From Micromonospora sp. MH99 (GTDB lineage: Bacteria; Actinomycetota; Actinomycetes; Mycobacteriales; Micromonosporaceae), in the NCBI RefSeq assembly GCF_021442385.1, contig NZ_MUZA01000009.1:62001-126000 (forward strand): a stretch of 64,000 nucleotides of DNA, given 5' to 3'. Position 1 is the first letter of the stretch. The number at the start of each line of letters is the position of its first letter. The notes beneath the pieces were generated by a model. The model was not told the DNA's origin. It was given only the letters and a program-made list of their open reading frames with translations, and did no database searches. Shown piece by piece: positions 31,302 to 63,331 of this stretch. The translations under genes were made by a program, and so were the position numbers.

Positions 31302-31649
31302 TCAGCTGGCCCGGTAGGTGAGGTAGCGGCCCTCTGTCCAGCTGTGGAAGTTGTTGAGTTCGGTTGCCGGGCCGCTGCAGTCGGTGCTCTGGTAGCCGGG
31401 CACCGAACGGAAGCCACCGCTCCAGGTGAGCATCCAGGCCGCGTCGGCCGGCACCTGATGGCAGATGCCGTCGGGTGTGGCCAGCCTGCCGGCCACCTCG
31501 GTCGGGTAGCTCGAGTAGAAGACCAGGCCCTGGTCCGGGCTCTGGAACGGTTCGCCAGCCACCGCAGGCGACCCCGGCAGCGTCACGGCCGATGCGGCGA
31601 TCAGGACGGCGGCGAGACTCGCGGTGGTCCGGCGGGCGGATGCGCGCAT
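31302..31649 (-). CDS. Small secreted protein of unknown function
   Basis: 115 residues from the ATG at 31649, after AAAGGACC. Signal peptide: MRASARRTTASLAAVLIAASAVTLPG with cleavage near PAVAGE. The mature ~83 residues have two Cys (ICHQVP, TDCSGP) and aromatic repeats (WMLTWSGGF, NFHSWTEGRYLTY). No family recognised. Its 170-nt upstream region is shared with the divergent 31820 gene and includes an AT-rich patch (GACATATATCGATGTC) near 31712-31727. Confidence 0.65.
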   Translation of the reverse strand: MRASARRTTASLAAVLIAASAVTLPGSPAVAGEPFQSPDQGLVFYSSYPTEVAGRLATPDGICHQVPADAAWMLTWSGGFRSVPGYQSTDCSGPATELNNFHSWTEGRYLTYRAS

Positions 31650-31819
31650 GAGTGGTCCTTTCGGGACGGTGGTCAGAGGGCGGACCAAAAGTTGACTCGG
31701 TCCAGACTCAGACTGACATATATCGATGTCGTAATCCATCCGGGACGCCCTTCGGCACGCATCGCGGCAGACACTCGCGCGTGATCGTGTCGGTGAACCC
31801 GTGGCTACACTGCACGACC

Positions 31820-32461
31820 ATGCGCTCGGGCGAGATTCTCGACCAGCTCGACGCCGCGGCCGAGGACTTCCGGTTCCCGGACCTGGGCCACGGTTACTAC
31901 TTTGCGGTCGACGCACGGCTGCACGCCTATCGCGACGCGGACCGGTGGGCGCTCATCGTGGAGACGTTGGGATATTCGCCCAGGGCTGGCAACCTCATCG
32001 ACGTCCTGCACGTCTTCGGCAACTGCCTCACCACGGGACAACCGGGCTTTGGCAACGAGGACTTCCTCAGCCGGATCGACAACTGGGACGAGATCGAGGA
32101 TGTCGACGAGCCCGAGATCTACTGCGGAAACCCGATCGAGGTACGAGGCCGGCGGATCGCCGTAGCAGCCGAGCCGGGCGAGGAACTCTTCGACGTGTTT
32201 CGCCGGCTCGTTCCGGAACACCGGGAGCTGCTCCTGGCCGACGACGTCGAACTGCGGCGGCGGATCCCGGCCGACCTCCCCGAGATCATGCGATTGGACC
32301 GGTGGCACCACCCGGACCTTGTCCAGGACACCCTTCCCAGTCGCTCAACGACCTTCCGCCAGCTCGCCGACGTGCTGGCGACGGGAGACGCGAGTCGGTA
32401 CGCGCCAGACCTACCACCCAACACACACTGGTCCCACTGGCCGGAGTCCGGGACCCTGTGA
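31820..32461 (+). CDS. Conserved cytoplasmic protein, DUF7003-like
   Basis: 213 residues, ATG start. Distinctive blocks: ILDQLDAAAEDFRFPDLGHGYYFAVDARLHAYRD, WALIVETLGYSPRAGNLIDVLHVFGN, EEIEDVDEPEIYCGNPIEVRGRRI and PELLLADDVELRRRIP. I associate this with the DUF7003 family (recall only). No known biochemical role. Such proteins appear with SMI1/SUKH-type immunity orphans in actinomycetes, as do the neighbouring genes here. Confidence 0.65.
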   Translation: MRSGEILDQLDAAAEDFRFPDLGHGYYFAVDARLHAYRDADRWALIVETLGYSPRAGNLIDVLHVFGNCLTTGQPGFGNEDFLSRIDNWDEIEDVDEPEIYCGNPIEVRGRRIAVAAEPGEELFDVFRRLVPEHRELLLADDVELRRRIPADLPEIMRLDRWHHPDLVQDTLPSRSTTFRQLADVLATGDASRYAPDLPPNTHWSHWPESGTL

Positions 32462-32503
32462 CCCTCACCGCGAGACGGTGCGGCCGCCGCGATGAGTGTG
32501 GGT

Positions 32504-32851
32504 TCAGTCCCTCGGGTCAGGGGACGTCGACCCGGGAAGGCTCGCGACGACAAGCTCCACGGCCTCCGCCGCTGTCGTGGCCTCACCGAGCAGCCGTTCA
32601 TAGCCCGGGGTGTAGACCTGGTACGGAGGGCCGCCACACACGATGAAGGGCAGGTCGTCGGTGCGGACAGCGGGGTACGGTGGCCGGGCGGTCCGGAAGA
32701 ACTTCAGCGTTCCGTGCGTGGGAAGCGGGAAGAACGTTCGCAGCGTCGGGTGCTCGTAGGCGGCGGTCACCACCGGATCGCCGGACCACCAATTCGGTGC
32801 GCCGTGCACGAGATCCCGCCACGTCTCGGCGGCTTCGATGTTCTCCTTCAC
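32504..32851 (-). CDS. DUF6193-like small protein
   Basis: 115 residues from a GTG at 32851, 7 nt after GGGAGGA (frame is open further upstream). Pattern: AAETWRDLVHGAPNWWSGDPVVTAAYEHPTLRTFFPLPTHGTLKFFRT, then PPYQVYTP and AAEAVELVVASLPG. The W-R-x-L...A-y-x-x-P-x-L-R-x-x-f-P...S/T-H-x-x-L-x-F series matches what I know as DUF6193, seen near natural-product or toxin loci. It lies 50 nt downstream of the 32902 gene on the same strand. Confidence 0.6.
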   Translation of the reverse strand: MKENIEAAETWRDLVHGAPNWWSGDPVVTAAYEHPTLRTFFPLPTHGTLKFFRTARPPYPAVRTDDLPFIVCGGPPYQVYTPGYERLLGEATTAAEAVELVVASLPGSTSPDPRD

Positions 32852-32901
32852 CGAGCCATCCTCCCACTGCCGGGCCAGGCTGAGCAGGACACCTGACGGG
32901 G

Positions 32902-33996
32902 TCAGCGCCGCTCTGGCTCGTCGACGACCGGAAAGGCCTGCCGCACCTCCGCCAGGAACTCGTCCCGCCGCGCGGCGTACGTGCTGACCGCCGCCCACAG
33001 CGCCTCCAGCGCGGCCTGCAGCGGGTCCGACTCACCAGCGGCCATCAGTGCCGGTAGCGCCATCGGGACCGGGTCCACCGGGGCGTCGAGAACCGCGCCG
33101 AGCGAATCAGCCGGGCCGTGACCCGCCGGGCGCAGCGAGACGGTGGAGAAGATGACGGGCGGCTCGCCCCGGATCCGTGTCCACAGTGCCGTGTGATCGG
33201 CGAACTCGGCGGGTAGCGGCTCGCCCCGATCCAGGGCCGTCCACGCCGGTGTCATCCAGTCCAGGTCCGCGATGCCGGCGACGGTGAACGCCCGCCGTGC
33301 GGCCCAGATCGCGATCTGGCGCTGAATGCCGGCGCCGGCCGCCGCCACCCCGTCGACCAGGTCGCGGTCCAGCAAGGCGATGCCGTGGACGTTGCCGCGC
33401 ACCTGCCGGAGCCGTTCACTTGGCGCACGACCGCCCCAGCGCCGCAGCTCATCCCGCCTTCGGTACTCCTGATCGCGGCGCTCCCGCTCCAACCGCCTGA
33501 GCATCTCGGCCTCGACCTGCTCCCACAGGGTCGGCGGGGGTGGCAACCCGGCCGCCCAGCCGTGCCAGTACGCGGCGGCCCGGCTGGTCTGGCGCACGAT
33601 CGCGTCGGCGCGCGGCACGGCGGCTCGGGAACCCTCGCCCGTCGAGCCCTCCGGCCACAGGCACAACAGGTAGCGGTCCGGCCGCCGATCCATGTACGTG
33701 TAATCGTCCTCGTCCAGCTCGTCGGGGTCGAACCCGCCGAACGGGTCCCGCCCCTCGTCCATGCCCGTGGCGCAGTACCGCACGCGGTAGACCGGCAGCC
33801 GGCCGGCGTCCTGCCCCTCGGGGGTCAGCGGCAACGGGGCGAGTGACCCGTCGCCCCAGGGGACCAGGTCAACCACCGGGGCCCTGGGCAGAAACGACGC
33901 CTCCACCACCTCCTCCCACTCCTGCGCCGCGGCCGACGGCTCACCGTCGTACACCTCGACTCGGAAGTGGACCCGCCCGGTGTGCGTGCCGGTCAT
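32902..33996 (-). CDS. Conserved protein; C-terminal part of an apparently split ORF
   Basis: 364 residues beginning MTGTHTGRVHFRVEVYDG. No signal peptide. Acidic N-terminal domain (VVEASFLPRAPVVDLVPWGDGSLAPLPL), a central YTYMDRRPDRYLLCLWPEG strand pair, a charged helix (EAEMLRRLERERRDQEYRRRDELRRW) and a C-terminal helical region with AALEALWAAVSTYAARRDEFLAEV. The first 22 nt lie in a perfect 20-bp tandem duplication. Removing one copy joins this gene in frame to the 55-codon ORF at 33993-34160, so the real protein was probably one about 412-residue polypeptide. The present ATG overlaps the upstream stop by 4 nt. Confidence 0.7.
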   Translation of the reverse strand: MTGTHTGRVHFRVEVYDGEPSAAAQEWEEVVEASFLPRAPVVDLVPWGDGSLAPLPLTPEGQDAGRLPVYRVRYCATGMDEGRDPFGGFDPDELDEDDYTYMDRRPDRYLLCLWPEGSTGEGSRAAVPRADAIVRQTSRAAAYWHGWAAGLPPPPTLWEQVEAEMLRRLERERRDQEYRRRDELRRWGGRAPSERLRQVRGNVHGIALLDRDLVDGVAAAGAGIQRQIAIWAARRAFTVAGIADLDWMTPAWTALDRGEPLPAEFADHTALWTRIRGEPPVIFSTVSLRPAGHGPADSLGAVLDAPVDPVPMALPALMAAGESDPLQAALEALWAAVSTYAARRDEFLAEVRQAFPVVDEPERR

Positions 33997-34016
33997 CCGG
34001 TGTGCGTGCCGGTCAT
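33977..34016. repeat. Perfect 20-bp tandem duplication
   Basis: CCGGTGTGCGTGCCGGTCAT occurs twice without interruption (33977-33996 and 33997-34016). 20 is not a multiple of three, so the duplication shifts the frame of the minus-strand ORF and creates an ATGA stop-start overlap. Either a recent slippage event or an assembly artefact. Confidence 0.9.
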
Positions 34017-34160
34017 CAGGAACAGCGCGCCCGCCTGGCCGGCCCCGCAGAGGCCGTTCGCCTGCCCGGCGAACGCCCCGCTCATGTCCGGCAGCTCACG
34101 ACTCGTCACGTAAATCTGCCCGTAGGCGACCGGCGCCGGGCCGTCGAAGAGAACGCGCAT
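33993..34160 (-). pseudogene. 55-codon N-terminal piece of the ORF split by the 20-bp duplication
   Basis: Starts at the ATG at 34160 (MRVLFDGPAPVAYGQIYVTS) and continues through GAFAGQANGLCGAGQAGALFLMTGTHTG to a TGA created by the duplication. Its last eight residues, MTGTHTG and flanks, repeat the start of the 32902 gene, which continues the fold in the other frame. It is read here as the 5' half of a disrupted gene. Alternatively the pair may be translationally coupled through ATGA and give two chains. Confidence 0.6.
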
Positions 34161-34270
34161 CGGCCGATCCTGCCATCGACCGGCGGACGCCCGCTGTCCC
34201 CTCGACCCGACGGCACGCGGGTGATCTGTCCGAGACCCGACCAGGGTTCGCGGGCGCGGCCACTACCGCA

Positions 34271-34350
34271 GGAAACCGCTTACCCGACGGCTATTGACGG
34301 TCATCGTTGGCTCTCAGTACCGTGATGCGGGCAGCGAGAAAGCGCTTTCC
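34271..34350 (+). promoter_or_regulatory. Candidate sigma70-type promoter flanked by two LacI-style boxes
   Basis: TTGACG (34294-34299), 18-nt spacer, TACCGT (34318-34323). Just downstream is the perfect palindrome GAAAGCGCTTTC (34338-34349), and just upstream of the -35 a diverged copy, GGAAACCGCTTACC (34271-34284). The downstream box matches 13 of 14 positions of GGAAAGCGCTTTCC, the pattern also seen around the LacI gene near 51.5 and 52.4 kb. It controls the ThuA/sugar dehydrogenase gene starting at 34381. Confidence 0.6.
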
Positions 34351-34380
34351 GACCCTCACCGTCCGACAGGGAGCGCCCCC

Positions 34381-37300
34381 ATGCCCAAACACCTGCGCGC
34401 GATCTGCCTCGCCCTGCTCGCCATCGCCACCGTGCTGAGCACCACCACCGCCCTGCCCGCCCAGGCCGCCCCGCGCTTCCGGGTGCTGGTCTTCTCGAAG
34501 ATCACCAACTACTACCACGACTCGATCCCGGCCGGCGTCGCCGCGATCCAGCAGCTCGGCGCCACGCACAACTTCGACGTCGTCGCCACCACCGACGCGG
34601 CCGCCTTCACCGACGCCAACCTCGCCACCTTCGACGCACTGGTCTTCAACAACACCAACTCCACCCCCGCCTCGGGTGACCTGCTCAACGCCAGCCAGCG
34701 CGCGGCTTTGCAGACGTTCATCCGCAACGGCGGCGGCTGGGCCGGCCTGCACGCCGCCTCGGCAAGCGAACGCGACTGGCCGTGGTACGAGGGCCTGGTC
34801 GGCACCATCTTCGACCACCACCCCGACTTCTCGGCCACCGGCGGCACGTACCCGGGTCGGGTCAAGGTGCTGGACCGCGCCCACCCCTCCACCCGCAACC
34901 TCCCGGAGCTGTGGGAGCAGAGCGAGGAGTGGTACAACTGGCGGACCAACCCCACCGGCAACGTGCACACCCTCGCGCAGATCAAGGTGCGCGACGGGAT
35001 CAGCGGCCTGGACGAGGGCGTCGACCACGCGTACTCCTGGTGTCAGCGCTACGACGGCGGCCGGTCCTGGTTCACCGCCGGCGGGCACGCCAGCTCCCGG
35101 TTCAGCGAGCCGGCGTTCCTGGAGCATCTGCGCTACGGCATCGAGTGGGCCGCCGGCGCGGTCGCCGGCGACTGCTCCGCCACCAGAACCGGAAACTTCG
35201 AGCGGGTGGGCCTGGTCACCGAGAACCTCGCCGACCCCTTCGAGCTGGCCGTCGCCCCGGACCGGAAGGTCTACTACATCCAGCGCACCGGCGCGCTCAA
35301 GGTGGTCAACTCGGACACGCTCCAGGTCACCACGCTGCTCGACTTCGCCTACACCTCGGCGATGACCGACCAGTCCGACGGGCTGCTCGGGATGACCCTG
35401 GACCGCAACTTCGCCAGCAACGGCTGGGTCTACCTGCTCTGGTCGGACAAGACCCTCAAACAGCTCAACCTGTCCCGGTTCACCGTAGCGAACAACAGCG
35501 TCGCGCTGTCCTCCGAGAAGCGGCTGCTGACCGTTCCGACGTACCGCGGTGTGGGTCGCGCCAACTCGCACATGGGCGGCTCGCTGGCCATGGACGCGGC
35601 CGGTCGCCTGTACGCAGCGATCGGTGACAACACCGACCCGTTCGCCTCCAGCGGTTACACCCCTATCGACGAGCAGGCCGGTCGGGCCGCCTGGGACGCG
35701 CAGGGCACCGCCGGCAACACCAACGACCTGCGCGGCAAGATCCTGCGCATCACCCCGCAAGCCGACGGTACGTACACCGTGCCGAGCGGCAACCTCTTCC
35801 CGGCCGGCACGGCGAAGACCCGGCCGGAGATCTACGCGATGGGCATGCGCAACCCGTTCCGGATCACCATCGAGCCGCAGACGAACGCGGTGCTGGTCGG
35901 CGACTACGGCCCGGACGCCCGCGCCGCCGACCCCAACCGCGGTCCGGAGGGGACAGTCGAGTTCAACCGCATCACCGCCGCCGGCAACTACGGCTGGCCG
36001 TACTGCGTGGGCAACAACATCCCGTTCACCGACTACAACTTCGCCACCAGCACCTCCGGGGCGAAGTTCACCTGCGCCGCACCGACGAACAACTCCCCCA
36101 ACAACACCGGTCTGACCGCCCTGCCGGCGGCGAAGCCGGCACTGGTCTGGTACGCGTACTCCGCCTCCAGCCAGTTCCCGGAGGTCGGCACCGGGGGCGG
36201 TGGCCCGATGAGCGGGCCGGTCTACGACTACGACCCGGCCAACAGCCGCACCACGAAGTTCCCGGAGTACTTCGACGGCAAGTGGATCACCTACGAGTTC
36301 ACCCGCAAGTGGTTCAAGACGCTCTCGATCCACCGGACCGCGCAGACCTTCACCACCTCGCGCTTCGGTCCCACCGCCGTCGGCGACCTCCAGTCGATCA
36401 ACGGAATCTTCGACAACATGAGCTGGATCCAGCCCTTCGAGGCGGAGTTCGGGCCGGACGGCTCGCTCTACGTCATCGACTTCGGTGAGGGCACCGGCAG
36501 CGGTCGCGGCGGCAGCAACGCCGGCGCCGGCATCTACCGGATCGACTACGTGGCCAACGGCCGACCGCCGACCGCGAAGATCGCCGCCACTCCGGACAGC
36601 GGACGTACGCCGCTCGCGGTCAGCTTCTCCTCGGCCGGGACGGCGACCGGTGACGGCTCGGCGCTCAGCTATGCCTGGGACTTCACCAACGACGGCACCA
36701 CCGACTCCACCGCCGCCAATCCGAGCTTCACCTACTCGGCGGCCGGGAGGTTCACCGCCCGGCTGACCGTCCGCAACACCGGCAACGGCCTGACCGCCAG
36801 CGCCGTCACCGACGTGGTGGTCGGCAACACCCGACCCACGGTGACCATCACCGTGCCCGACGGCGGGTTCTTCGACTTCGGCGACAAGATCCCGTACACG
36901 GTGACGGTCACCGATCCGGAGGACACCACCATCGACTGCGCCAAGGTGACCGTCCAGACCCAGCTCGGCCACGACACGCACGCCCACCCGCTGGACGTCT
37001 ACACCGGCTGCTCGGGACTGCTCGCCACCGAGGCGGACGCGGGTGACGGCCACGGGCCGGGACAGAACCTCTACACCGTCGTGACCGCGCAGTACACCGA
37101 CGGCGGCGCGGCCGGCGGCGTACCGGCGCTGACCGGCTCGACCCGGGCGCAGCTGCAACCCAAGAGCAAGGAGGCCGAGCACGTCAGCGGCCAGTCCGGC
37201 CTCGTGGTGAACGACCGGACCACCGCCCGCGCCGGCAAGCGGCTCGGCGACGTCGACCACAACGACTGGGCGGCGTACGGGCCGGTGGACCTGCGCAACA

Positions 37301-45387: not shown

Positions 45388-46183
45388 CGTGGCGCAGGTA
45401 ACCGGCGATCGCCTCGTCCAGCACCTGTGCACCGGGACGCGCCCACACCTCGGCGGAGAAGACCTCCACCTCGATCGGCCCGCGGTAGCCGGCCGCGTCG
45501 ACCGCCTCGCGCAGCCGGCGCAACTCGATGCACCCGTCGCCGGGCAGCGCCCGGCCGAGCAGCACCCCCTCGGGCAGCGGGGTCACCCAGTCGCAGACCT
45601 GGAACGCGGCGATCCGCGCGCCGGCCCGCGCGATCTGCGCGTACACCGTGTCGTCCCACCACACGTGATACGCGTCGACGACCACGCCGACCACCGCCGG
45701 GTCGAACCGCTCGGCGATGTCCAGCGCCTGGCCGAGGGTGGCGATCACGCACCGGTCGGCGGCGAACATCGGGTGCAGCGGCTCGATGGCCAACCGGACG
45801 CCGGCCGCGGCCGCGTGCGGGGCCAACTCGCCGATCGCGTCGGCGACCCGACGGCGGGCGCCGTCGATGTCCCGACTGCCGGACGGCAGACCGCCGGAGA
45901 CCAGCACCAGCTCGGGTGCGCCCAGCGCGGCGGCCTCCTCGATGGCCCGCAGGTTCTCCGTACGCCAGTCGTCGGCGGTGAAGAAGCCACCCCGGCACAG
46001 GGACGTGACGACGAGGCCGGCGTCGCGGACCAGTTTCGCCGAGCGGGCCAGCCCGTACCCGGCCACCGGCTCCCGCCACAACCCGATGCCCGGCACGCCG
46101 GCCGCCACGCAACCGGCGACCACGTCGGGCAGCGCCCAGTGCTGGGCGGTGGCCTGGTTGAACGAGAAGCGCGTGAGGCTCAC
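45380..46183 (-). CDS. Sugar phosphate isomerase/epimerase-type TIM barrel (xylose-isomerase-like)
   Basis: 267 residues from the GTG at 46183 (VSLTRFSFNQATAQHW). The frame is open upstream only because the 60-bp tandem repeat happens to be stop-free. TIM-barrel AP-endonuclease-2 fold: GIGLWREPVAGYG, VVTSLCRGGFFTADDW, GAPELVLVSGGLPSGSRD, LAIEPLHPMFAADRCVI (metal Glu), GVVVDAYHVWWDD (Asp/His) and PIEVEVFS (Glu). Such enzymes isomerise or epimerise sugars and cyclitols, or dehydrate keto-inositols (IolE type). Overlaps the NCS1 gene. Confidence 0.85.
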   Translation of the reverse strand: MSLTRFSFNQATAQHWALPDVVAGCVAAGVPGIGLWREPVAGYGLARSAKLVRDAGLVVTSLCRGGFFTADDWRTENLRAIEEAAALGAPELVLVSGGLPSGSRDIDGARRRVADAIGELAPHAAAAGVRLAIEPLHPMFAADRCVIATLGQALDIAERFDPAVVGVVVDAYHVWWDDTVYAQIARAGARIAAFQVCDWVTPLPEGVLLGRALPGDGCIELRRLREAVDAAGYRGPIEVEVFSAEVWARPGAQVLDEAIAGYLRHVV

Positions 46184-46300
46184 TGGGCTGTTCTTCGTTC
46201 GCGACTGCGGGGCTCGCAAACCCGGCTCACTCCTCGCGCTCACTGGGCTGTTCTTCGTTCGCGACTGCGGGGCTCGCAAACCCGGCTCACTCCTCGCGTT
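46181..46300. repeat. Two tandem 60-bp copies of the intercistronic repeat
   Basis: Units 46181-46240 and 46241-46300 differ at a single base. The block runs from the DUF993 stop codon to the isomerase GTG exactly, like the single copy at 1635-1690. Because 60 is a multiple of three and one frame is open, gene prediction may wrongly extend the isomerase by 40 residues (the repeating SARSEPGLRAPQSRTKNSP). Confidence 0.92.
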
Positions 46301-47454
46301 CACTGGACGACACCCGCCACGGTGAAGAACGCCCGCGCGCGGGCGGCGGCCAGGTCGGCGTCGGGCAGCAGCCCGGCCGCGTCGGCCAGGGTGAGCAGGG
46401 TCGCCAGGTGCGCCGGGGACCGCCCGGACTGCGCGCCGCCGACCATGGTGAAGTGGTCCTGGTGGCCGGCCAGCCAGGCCAGGAACACGATCCCCGTCTT
46501 GTAGTGCCAGGTCGGTGCCGCGAACAGGTGCCGGGCCAGCGGCACGGTCGGCGCGAAGATCTCGTCGTACGTCGCCAGGTCGCCCCGGTCGAGGGCCGCC
46601 AGCGCGGCGGCGGCGGCCGGCGCGATCGCCGCGAACACCCCGAGCAGCGCGTCGGAGTGGCCCACCTCGTCACCCCGGATCAGCTCCGGGTAGTGGAAGT
46701 CGTCGCCGGTGTAGAGGCGTACGCCCGCCGGTAGCCGGCGGCGCAACGCGATCTCCCGGCCGGCGTCCAGCAGCGATACCTTGATGCCGTCCACTGAAGA
46801 CTGATGCGCCTTGATCAGCTCGACGACCGTGTCGGCGGCCAGGTCCAGATCGGCGGATCCCCAGTAGCCGGCCAACGCCGGGTCGAACATCGGGCCCAGC
46901 CAGTGCAGCACCACCGGCTCGTCGGCGGCGGTCAGCAGCTCGTCGTACACCCGGAGGTAGTCCTCGGGGCCACGGGCGGCGGCGGCCAGGTGCCGGCTGC
47001 ACATCAGCACCGGCCTGGCGCCGGCCGCGCGGACGTCGTCGAGCTGTTCGCGGTACGCGGCGGCGACCGCCGACAGGGTGGCCGGGCCGGACGGCAGCTG
47101 GTCGGTGCCGACACCCGCGACGATCCGGCCGCCCACGGCACGGGCCTCGGCGGCGCTGCGCCGGATCAGCTCCCGGGTGGCCGGGTAGTCCAGGCCCATC
47201 CCCCGCTGGGCGGTGTCCATCGCCTCGGCGACCCCCAGCCCGTACGACCACAGGTGCCGCCGGAACGCGAGTGTGGTGTCCCAGTCCACGGCCGCCGGGG
47301 CCCCCGGCACGTTCTCCGCGCCCGGGTCGGCGACCACGTGCGCGGCGGCGTACGCGATCCGGCCGGTCGCCGGGGCGGCCGGGCGGGCGAAGCCGGTCCC
47401 CCCGGCCAGCCGGTGTCGCCGCCCGTCCGGCAGCACCACGTCGGCGGCGCTCAC
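46300..47454 (-). CDS. DUF993 family, dihydrodipicolinate-synthase-like TIM barrel
   Basis: 384 residues from the GTG at 47454, overlapping the Gfo/Idh stop by 4 nt. Features: ADVVLPDGRRHRL at the N-terminus, AYAAAHVVADPGAE, VDWDTTLAFRRHLWSYGLGVAEAMDTAQRGMGLDYPATREL, IVAGVGTDQLPSG, PVVLHWLGPMFDPALAGYWGS and a Lys in SSVDGIKVSLLD that could form the aldolase-type Schiff base, then YTGDDFHYPELI. This matches DUF993, a DHDPS/NAL-like group of unknown reaction. Context suggests cleavage or dehydration of a modified sugar or sugar acid. Confidence 0.85.
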   Translation of the reverse strand: MSAADVVLPDGRRHRLAGGTGFARPAAPATGRIAYAAAHVVADPGAENVPGAPAAVDWDTTLAFRRHLWSYGLGVAEAMDTAQRGMGLDYPATRELIRRSAAEARAVGGRIVAGVGTDQLPSGPATLSAVAAAYREQLDDVRAAGARPVLMCSRHLAAAARGPEDYLRVYDELLTAADEPVVLHWLGPMFDPALAGYWGSADLDLAADTVVELIKAHQSSVDGIKVSLLDAGREIALRRRLPAGVRLYTGDDFHYPELIRGDEVGHSDALLGVFAAIAPAAAAALAALDRGDLATYDEIFAPTVPLARHLFAAPTWHYKTGIVFLAWLAGHQDHFTMVGGAQSGRSPAHLATLLTLADAAGLLPDADLAAARARAFFTVAGVVQ

Positions 47455-60997: not shown

Positions 60998-63331
60998 CTA
61001 GGCGTTAGCCACCAGCCGCCAGCGGTTGTCCGCGCTGCCGTTGTCGGAGTCCTGGACGGCCTGCGCGCCACGCGCGGTGGACCCGTTGAGGATGCCGAGC
61101 AGCTTGCCGCTGTTGACGTTGCGGATCTTGTAGGTGCCGTCGCCGTTGTCCACCAGGGTCCACCGGTGGTCGGCGGTGCCGTTGTCGGCCCACTGCAGGA
61201 CGCGGGCGTTGTCGGCGGTGGACATGTTCTCCACGCCGAGGACCTTGCCGCTGTTGACGTTGCGGAACCGGACGGCGGTGCCGTCGGTCACCACCACCCA
61301 GTTGTGGTCGGCGGTGCCGCTGTCGTCCCACTGCAGAGCCAGCCCACCGTCCGCGGTGGACATGTTCTGGATGCCGAGCACCATCCCGCTGCCGACGTTG
61401 ACCAGCCGGTGGCTGCCCCCACCACTGCTGCCACTGGTGTTCCAGTAGACGGTGTAGTTGAAGCCGTGGGCGTCCTGGAACGGCCCGAGGTTGACGGTGG
61501 ACCCGTTCGCGGTGGCGGTGAACGCCAACGAGCTGGTGCTGGTCCGCGCGATGGACGAGACGTTGAGTGCCGGCGGGGCGCTCAGCGTGGTGTTGCCGTA
61601 GTTGCCGCTGAGCACGCTCGGGCCGTAGGTGACGGCGGCGATGCTGGGGTTGTCGTTGGTCGGCTGCACGACGACACGCATCGGCAGACGCACCGTGATG
61701 GTGTCACCGGCGGCCCAGGTACGCGTGACCGTGGCGTAGCTGCCGGGCGTCGTGGCGACGGACTGCGCCACACCGTTGACGCTGATCGTCGCGCCGCTGG
61801 TCCACGCCGGAATGCGGACGCGGACGCTCCACGAGCCGCTCATCGTGCCGCCGAGGGTGAGCGTGGTGGTGTCGCTCACCGGGTACGTGGTGCTCTGCGT
61901 GACCGTGATCCCCCGCTGCGACCAGTCCAGCTCCGAGGGCACGAACAGGTTCACGGTGAGCGTCGTGCCGCTGTAGAAGTAGATGGAGTCCATCAACTTC
62001 GTGTTGATCTCCACGCCGGTGCCCTGGCAGCACCAGAACGAGTTGTAGTCGGTGCTCCAGGTGCCGCCACCCCACGCCGGGCCCACACCCCGCCGGCCGC
62101 CCGGCTTGAGCGGGGTGAAGTAGGTGATGTGACCGTGGCTGTCGGCCGGGTTCTGCGCGCCGATCAGGTGGTTGATCGTGGCGCGCTCGTAGTAGTCGAA
62201 GTAGTCGGTCCGGTTCGGGTCGAGCAGCCACAGCTCCCGCGTCAGCTTGAGCATGTTGTAGGTGTTGCACTGCTCGCAGGTGTCGTTGCTGAGGTATCCG
62301 GCGATCGCGTTGGGCGCCCGGAAGTGCTCGGCCTGGCTGTTGCCGCCGATGACATAGGAGTGCGCGCGGACGGTCATGTTCCACGCGTTGCTGGCGATGT
62401 CCCGGTAGCGGGTCGTCCCGGTGGCCTTGAACTCGCGGGCCGCGCCCACCCACTTGGGCACCTGCGTGTTGGCGTGCAGTCCGTTGAGCTGGTCGGAGTT
62501 GGAGGCCAGGGGGTTGAACACGGCGGCGTGGTCGAACCGCTGGGCGGTGGTGAGCCACCGGCTGTCACCGGTCTGCTGGTAGATGTCGGTGAGCACCTCG
62601 TTCATACCACCGAACTCGGTGCCGAGCATCGACTGCATCTGGCTGGAGCTGAGCCGGGACGTGCGGGTGTCGACCCAGCCGGCGAGGGCCAGCAGCACCG
62701 TACGGGCCTGCGTGTTGCCGGTGTAGCGCCAGACGTCGAGCAGGCCGGCGAGCGTCTTGTGGATGCAGTAGTAGGGCACGTTGCCGTTGGACAGCGTGCG
62801 CGCCTCGAGCGCGGTGAAGTCGGACTCCGGGAAGCCGGAGAGGTATCCCGAACCGAACCCGGCCGCACCGTTGTTGGCCTGGCACTTGGCCATCTCGGCG
62901 ACCATGTAGTTCGCCTTGTCCCGGCAGGTGGTGTCGCCCAGCACCGCGTAGGCCTGCGCCCACGCGGTCAGGAAGTGCCCCTGCATGTGGGTCCGGAACG
63001 GGAAGTTCGGCGCATCCCAGCCACCGTTGGTGGCGGCGCCGTTGGTGGAGAGCCGGTGGTTGGCGCGGAAGTTGTAGAGCATCCGGTCGACGTCGACGAA
63101 GCGCAGGTAGTTCAGGGTGCGGGTCTGGTTGTCGAGCCAGCGGCCGGCGGTCAGTCGCACCTGACCGAACTCGAAGGGGTAGGCGCCGACGCCGATGTCC
63201 GACCGCGCTGGCGGGACCACGGCAGCGGCAGCGGGGCCCGCGCCGAGCGTCGTGGCTCCGGTGGCGGAGAGCACGGCGGTGGCGCCGGCGGCCTGCAGCA
63301 CGCGGCGTCGGCTGAGGGGCAGGGACGACAT
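60998..63331 (-). CDS. Secreted GH127-type beta-L-arabinofuranosidase with C-terminal ricin-type module
   Basis: 777 residues. Twin-arginine-like signal: SRRRVLQAAGATAVLSATGA. Catalytic (alpha/alpha)6 domain about 45-430 (QVRLTAGRWLDNQTRTLNYLRFVDVDRML, GFGSGYLSGFPE, EFGGMNEVLTDIY with the acid Glu). Metal/nucleophile cysteines: NDTCEQCNTYNMLKL (E-x-C) and SFWCCQGTGVE, matching the Zn-Cys site of GH127 enzymes. Beta domain follows, then about 640-777 a beta-trefoil with three repeats (NSGKVLGVENMSTAD...QWADNGTADHRW). It would trim arabinan side chains of pectin or hydroxyproline-rich glycoproteins. Confidence 0.93.
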   Translation of the reverse strand: MSSLPLSRRRVLQAAGATAVLSATGATTLGAGPAAAAVVPPARSDIGVGAYPFEFGQVRLTAGRWLDNQTRTLNYLRFVDVDRMLYNFRANHRLSTNGAATNGGWDAPNFPFRTHMQGHFLTAWAQAYAVLGDTTCRDKANYMVAEMAKCQANNGAAGFGSGYLSGFPESDFTALEARTLSNGNVPYYCIHKTLAGLLDVWRYTGNTQARTVLLALAGWVDTRTSRLSSSQMQSMLGTEFGGMNEVLTDIYQQTGDSRWLTTAQRFDHAAVFNPLASNSDQLNGLHANTQVPKWVGAAREFKATGTTRYRDIASNAWNMTVRAHSYVIGGNSQAEHFRAPNAIAGYLSNDTCEQCNTYNMLKLTRELWLLDPNRTDYFDYYERATINHLIGAQNPADSHGHITYFTPLKPGGRRGVGPAWGGGTWSTDYNSFWCCQGTGVEINTKLMDSIYFYSGTTLTVNLFVPSELDWSQRGITVTQSTTYPVSDTTTLTLGGTMSGSWSVRVRIPAWTSGATISVNGVAQSVATTPGSYATVTRTWAAGDTITVRLPMRVVVQPTNDNPSIAAVTYGPSVLSGNYGNTTLSAPPALNVSSIARTSTSSLAFTATANGSTVNLGPFQDAHGFNYTVYWNTSGSSGGGSHRLVNVGSGMVLGIQNMSTADGGLALQWDDSGTADHNWVVVTDGTAVRFRNVNSGKVLGVENMSTADNARVLQWADNGTADHRWTLVDNGDGTYKIRNVNSGKLLGILNGSTARGAQAVQDSDNGSADNRWRLVANA

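Follow-up and report, generated by a model that had tools for sequence, protein, structure and literature searches.

The locus described here lies on the reverse strand of the window, the whole 64,000-nucleotide stretch of Micromonospora sp. MH99 DNA that was analysed. Two open reading frames (ORFs) meet at a tandem duplication of a 20-bp segment (Table 1). Tandem Repeats Finder (TRF) placed the array at 33977-34017 on the minus strand, with a period of 20, 100% matches and no indels, and an exact-repeat scan recovered the same array at 2.05 copies. The two 20-bp copies are perfect and directly adjacent, with no gap between them. The TGA stop of the first ORF (33995-33993) and the ATG start of the second (33996-33994) overlap as ATGA. 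These results bear out a preliminary description of the sequence, which had reported two perfect copies splitting one frame, the residues MTGTHTG in both ORFs and a stop overlapping the second ATG; its coordinates proved correct against the ORF list, TRF and the exact scan.

Table 1. Features at and around the 20-bp duplication (positions are those of the window).
Feature	Position	Strand	Basis or remark
DUF6193 gene, downstream of the broken gene	32504..32851	-	start presumed from the corresponding M. lupini ATG
364-codon ORF, remainder of the gene	32902..33996	-	begins MTGTHTG
20-bp unit, copy opening the 364-codon ORF	33977..33996	-	TRF, exact scan
ATGA stop/start overlap (4 nt), product of the duplication	33993..33996	-	sequence, ORF list
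55-codon ORF, N-terminus of the gene	33993..34160	-	ends MTGTHTG followed by TGA; start and frame shared with five close orthologs
20-bp unit, copy closing the 55-codon ORF	33997..34016	-	TRF, exact scan; match extends one base (34017)
Upstream block of about 41 bases	34161..34201	-	alike in seven close homologs (L006-L012)

With one copy deleted in silico, the longest open frame was 446 codons, as against 397 before. As a control, the same operation was carried out on 12 tandem repeats from the window genome and two relatives, and it lengthened the longest frame at nine of them. Fusion of the frames is thus weak evidence by itself in GC-rich DNA, and it is the homologs that decide. As a repeat, the 20-bp array is not due to chance: a single first-order Markov sequence as long as our 1.93-Mb sample contained no perfect tandem repeat with a period of at least 14. 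Real Micromonospora DNA carries 22-30 such repeats per Mb; they are common as a class, and what sets the array at 33977-34016 apart is that it splits a gene.

Homologs across the duplication site

Five close orthologs (L006-L010), which are 75-84% identical to the 364-codon part, match both window pieces in a single frame, with the seven shared residues occurring once. Their lengths range between 409 and 416 codons; counted with one copy, the window gene has 412 codons and is open to its stop. An alignment of nine homologs at the DNA level showed a single copy in all nine, as expected if the second copy is a duplication, and a start at the position used by the 55-codon ORF (the start codon of L027 being GTG instead of ATG). 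The same count led us to reject the idea of a conserved hypermutable tract.

Similar results were obtained when the intact M. lupini protein was used as query. All 23 loci other than the window's own (21 distinct) cross the site in a single stop-free match, as the fused ancestral N-terminus proposed earlier would predict. With this query the window's own locus falls into two frames; it also gave a gapped match of spanning extent, which contains a stop.

A locus was scored as spanning when one match ran from residue 44 or before to residue 62 or beyond, with no stop between residues 38 and 64. The test covered 24 of the 41 loci bearing on the gene (numbered L001-L033 and L174-L181). Among the 24, the window's own locus is L001, L176 repeats L013 and L181 repeats L005, hence the 21 distinct loci. 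Omitted were the query itself (L032) and 16 loci of a longer type, with open frames of 502-839 codons, whose N region aligns weakly; seven further matches from the genus search, given no locus, are likewise outside the count. L002-L004, which are of the longer type, cross the site in one frame in a separate alignment.

The pattern extends beyond the genus search. All 19 plasmid records examined carry one continuous piece over the site (best place per record, residues 44-62); 17 of these matches are annotated as hypothetical proteins and two are unannotated. In four of the records the annotated start was compared with the start of the match: it fell on the same base in one, 6 and 9 bases upstream in two others, and 30 bases downstream in the fourth. 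A class-wide search gave matches in 39 of 296 genomes, that of the window included. Forty-four of the 46 non-own matches span the site in one stop-free match and the other two fall short of it, while the window genome itself gives two matches in different frames.

Altogether, these comparisons indicate that the 55- and 364-codon ORFs are the two parts of one gene. Homologs that naturally start at MTGTHTG and lack the 55-residue N-terminus, the finding that the preliminary description had named as contradicting it, were rejected as a possibility on the ortholog, DNA-alignment, spanning, plasmid and class-wide comparisons alike, the 21 distinct loci all reading through.

Two other possible lesions came to light in the course of these searches. 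The homolog of genome G111 (L013/L176) is apparently frameshifted farther down the gene, between M. lupini residues 139 and 152, where it yields two matches in different frames. A weak match at G233:C1:2791506-2791652, covering residues 2-46 and containing one TGA, ends near the same site as in the window and is maybe another broken copy. Given the lesion in G111, the gene family may be broken repeatedly.

Distribution of the gene and its surroundings

Matches with an E-value of 0.001 or less were found in 38 of 160 Micromonospora genomes (that of the window included), many of them covering the first or the second part only, and full-length orthologs of at least 75% identity in five other genomes of the 160. 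The gene is thus accessory and patchily distributed, and the word conserved, initially applied to it, is too strong for a distribution of this kind. The N part (about 200 residues) is found alone in L011, L012 and L027, and the C part occurs also in longer proteins that have a longer and more diverged front.

Searches for a family or a fold returned little. Neither Pfam nor NCBIfam gave a match over cut-off on the window pieces or the homologs, and PADLOC returned no match, on which ground membership in a known defence family was rejected. A resemblance of the N part to ComJ was discarded as well: PF11033 was found in none of 61 genomes of the genus at an E-value of 0.01 or less, whereas the Bacillus subtilis control was recovered. 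A search of solved structures with an 11-row profile gave one match, at E 0.54, which we took as chance. For the ortholog of M. lupini, a structure predicted from four aligned rows had a mean pLDDT of 44.9, too poor for claims.

The block of about 41 bases preceding the gene (Table 1) is not alike in L013 or L027. In a 60-kb segment of G159, all that is common with the part of the window compared is the gene together with about 45 bases upstream of it, the wider flanks being non-syntenic. The block may be the promoter. What may be a -10-like element is found 6 bases ahead of the ATG and would suggest a leaderless transcript; a scan of 31600-34400 for promoter and terminator consensus sequences found none.

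In the window as well as in M. lupini and G083, the same two genes, DUF7003 and DUF6193, are found close to the gene. A literature search for DUF6193 gave no match. In both genomes about 1 kb separates the 3' end of the gene from the DUF6193 gene (L032 in the case of M. lupini), and this DNA is missing from the window (32863-32922). The stretches of M. lupini and G083 are partly shared and otherwise different. The locus is therefore variable in more than one way.

Two further tandem repeats were recorded elsewhere in the window. At 46178-46306 a 60-bp unit is present in 2.2 copies with 98% matches; arrays similar to it in period and sequence occur in L125 of G083 (period 60) and in L138 of the window genome (period 62), and the array is perhaps a member of a dispersed intergenic repeat family of the genus. 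At 61094-61400 lies a diverged repeat of 138 bp (2.2 copies, 76% matches).

Origin of the duplication and its possible consequences

To date the break, dN/dS was estimated over 408 codons, as three-point estimates from pairwise Nei-Gojobori distances in six combinations. Values on the window branch range between 0.24 and 0.34, against 0.34-0.55 on the sister branch, with a window-branch dS of about 0.12-0.15. Neither relaxed selection nor further lesions after the break were seen, as judged from dN/dS and from the rest of the frame, which is open. Since the copies are identical, the frame is open and selection shows no relaxation, the break should be either recent on the scale of the branch or artefactual; a low dN/dS is equally expected in both cases.

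We favor the first of these and consider that the gene has probably been inactivated through a recent, strain-specific 20-bp duplication causing a frameshift. Strand slippage or a similar replication error would have duplicated 20 bp within an accessory gene, shifting the frame by two bases. The segment opens with ATGA and has a length of 2 modulo 3, and its repetition therefore puts the second ATG exactly over a TGA of the first frame. The ATGA thus follows mechanically from the repetition of an ATGA-initial segment, which makes the apparent coupling signal a by-product rather than evidence of design. Ribosomes initiating at the true start would make a 55-residue fragment and then stop, and little or no full-length protein would be produced, leaving the gene effectively inactivated. 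Should one copy be lost exactly, the gene would be whole again; the lesion should thus be revertible in principle, like any perfect tandem duplication.

Alternatively, the strain could have a single copy and an intact gene, the second copy having arisen during assembly by the joining of ends that share 20 bases. We regard this as unlikely, albeit with several observations on its side. The assembly is a draft (6.86 Mb in 155 contigs), and the gene is otherwise under constraint by the dN/dS measure. In the same assembly glnD (NCBIfam, [protein-PII] uridylyltransferase) carries, by comparison with G159, an apparent frameshift of one base toward its 3' end, its profile match ending early (739 of 782 positions), and another clean two-copy duplication of 20 bp is found in the intergenic region just downstream of glnD (L089 15093-15134). 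The G159 counterpart of that intergenic region did not align. The glnD lesion and the duplication next to it, which together occupy L089 14830-15134, both fit nature or error. A comparison of orthologs flagged frameshifts in 4 of 87 and 2 of 39 covered genes of this assembly, versus 3 of 85 and 0 of 40 in the reverse direction. However, the six flags correspond to five places, of which the four outside the present gene look intergenic or antisense by eye on the alignments. One flagged place lies just before the glnD start; the 3' lesion of glnD was unflagged and was spotted by eye.

Repeat statistics also speak against an assembly error. Perfect tandem repeats with a period of at least 14 numbered 43 in 1.93 Mb of this genome and 10 and 12 in 0.4 Mb each of the two relatives, that is 22.3 per Mb versus 25.0 and 30.0, with no excess here. 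Periods that are not a multiple of three accounted for 14 arrays in the window genome and for 6 and 1 in the relatives. Nor is there a peak at period 20, which accounts for 3 of the 43 arrays (one of these next to a longer one) versus 18 at period 15. The sample amounted to 28% of the window genome, including two all-N contigs that contribute nothing. Moreover, the contig is 151 kb long and the site lies some 96 kb from its beginning. An isolated indel error in the draft would nonetheless be conceivable.

Whether copies are lost and regained so as to switch the gene on and off within the population was also considered. The anatomy is in keeping with such a phase-variable switch, the duplication being perfect, short, frame-shifting and placed within an ORF, as are the pneumococcal capsule-gene duplications described in passages of PMC4022640. 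Yet there are two copies only, the single copy in the nine aligned relatives argues against a conserved repeat tract, and the data consist of one genome in one copy state, with no second allele or phenotype known. Phase variation therefore appears distinctly improbable.

A functional two-chain protein, in which termination at the TGA is coupled to restart at the ATG and chains of 55 and 364 residues assemble, seems very unlikely. In its favor, the 364-codon ORF stays open with a low dN/dS, and passages of PMC6728339 report that, in archaea and bacteria, termination-reinitiation can occur where a stop and a start codon overlap. Against it, the split falls within a conserved TG-HTG motif, and none of the 21 distinct non-own loci is split there, each having one frame instead of a two-gene pair. 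By eye, the 15 bases before the second ATG contain no Shine-Dalgarno-like motif. According to the same portions of PMC6728339, removal of this motif cut reinitiation substantially or wholly in four of five E. coli pairs; in archaeal pairs the outcome of removal was variable, and reinitiation did not strictly require the motif. Of 200 shuffled sequences, 168 fold at least as well as the RNA at the site, whose folding is thus no better than theirs. The slimmest chance goes to the boldest version, in which one slippage event would have created a working coupled two-chain protein, a gene fission in one step with its ATGA supplied by the duplication and reversible through copy loss.

Of the readings put forward in the preliminary description, that of a broken gene is supported; the coupled two-chain protein and the phase-variable switch found no positive support, no tested locus being split at the site. 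For annotation, the two ORFs are best treated as halves of one accessory gene, and a frameshift should be flagged pending support from reads. Were the split protein to work, it would constitute a natural one-step gene fission with built-in translational coupling. An ATGA-initial segment whose length is 2 modulo 3 can yield such coupling when duplicated in the right phase.

Comparison with known systems

With the ATGA gene pairs that undergo termination-reinitiation, as these are presented in the relevant passages of PMC6728339, the locus shares the 4-nt overlap of stop and start. It differs from them in that the overlap here is a by-product of a duplication, is unseen in relatives, is not preceded by a Shine-Dalgarno-like motif and joins ORFs that are halves of one gene.

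Comparable in anatomy are the spontaneous intragenic duplications that underlie phase variation in the pneumococcal type 3 locus, in cap8E and in tts (Waite et al. 2001, 2003; both cited in PMC4022640). For its own isolates carrying insertions of up to nine bases, PMC4022640 puts the expected reversion at no more than about 10^-5. As in the pneumococcal cases, a short tandem duplication breaks an ORF and could potentially revert. Phase variation has been reported in pneumococci, whereas here a single draft genome presents one state of an accessory gene that matches none of the curated families searched. Intragenic duplications of this sort being known, the locus adds at most a further example.

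The window gene resembles an ordinary bacterial frameshift pseudogene in having a frame that is broken relative to the tested relatives, and differs from it in being without further decay. Overall, the locus most likely represents a recent mutation of an ordinary kind that broke the gene, or perhaps an error of assembly.
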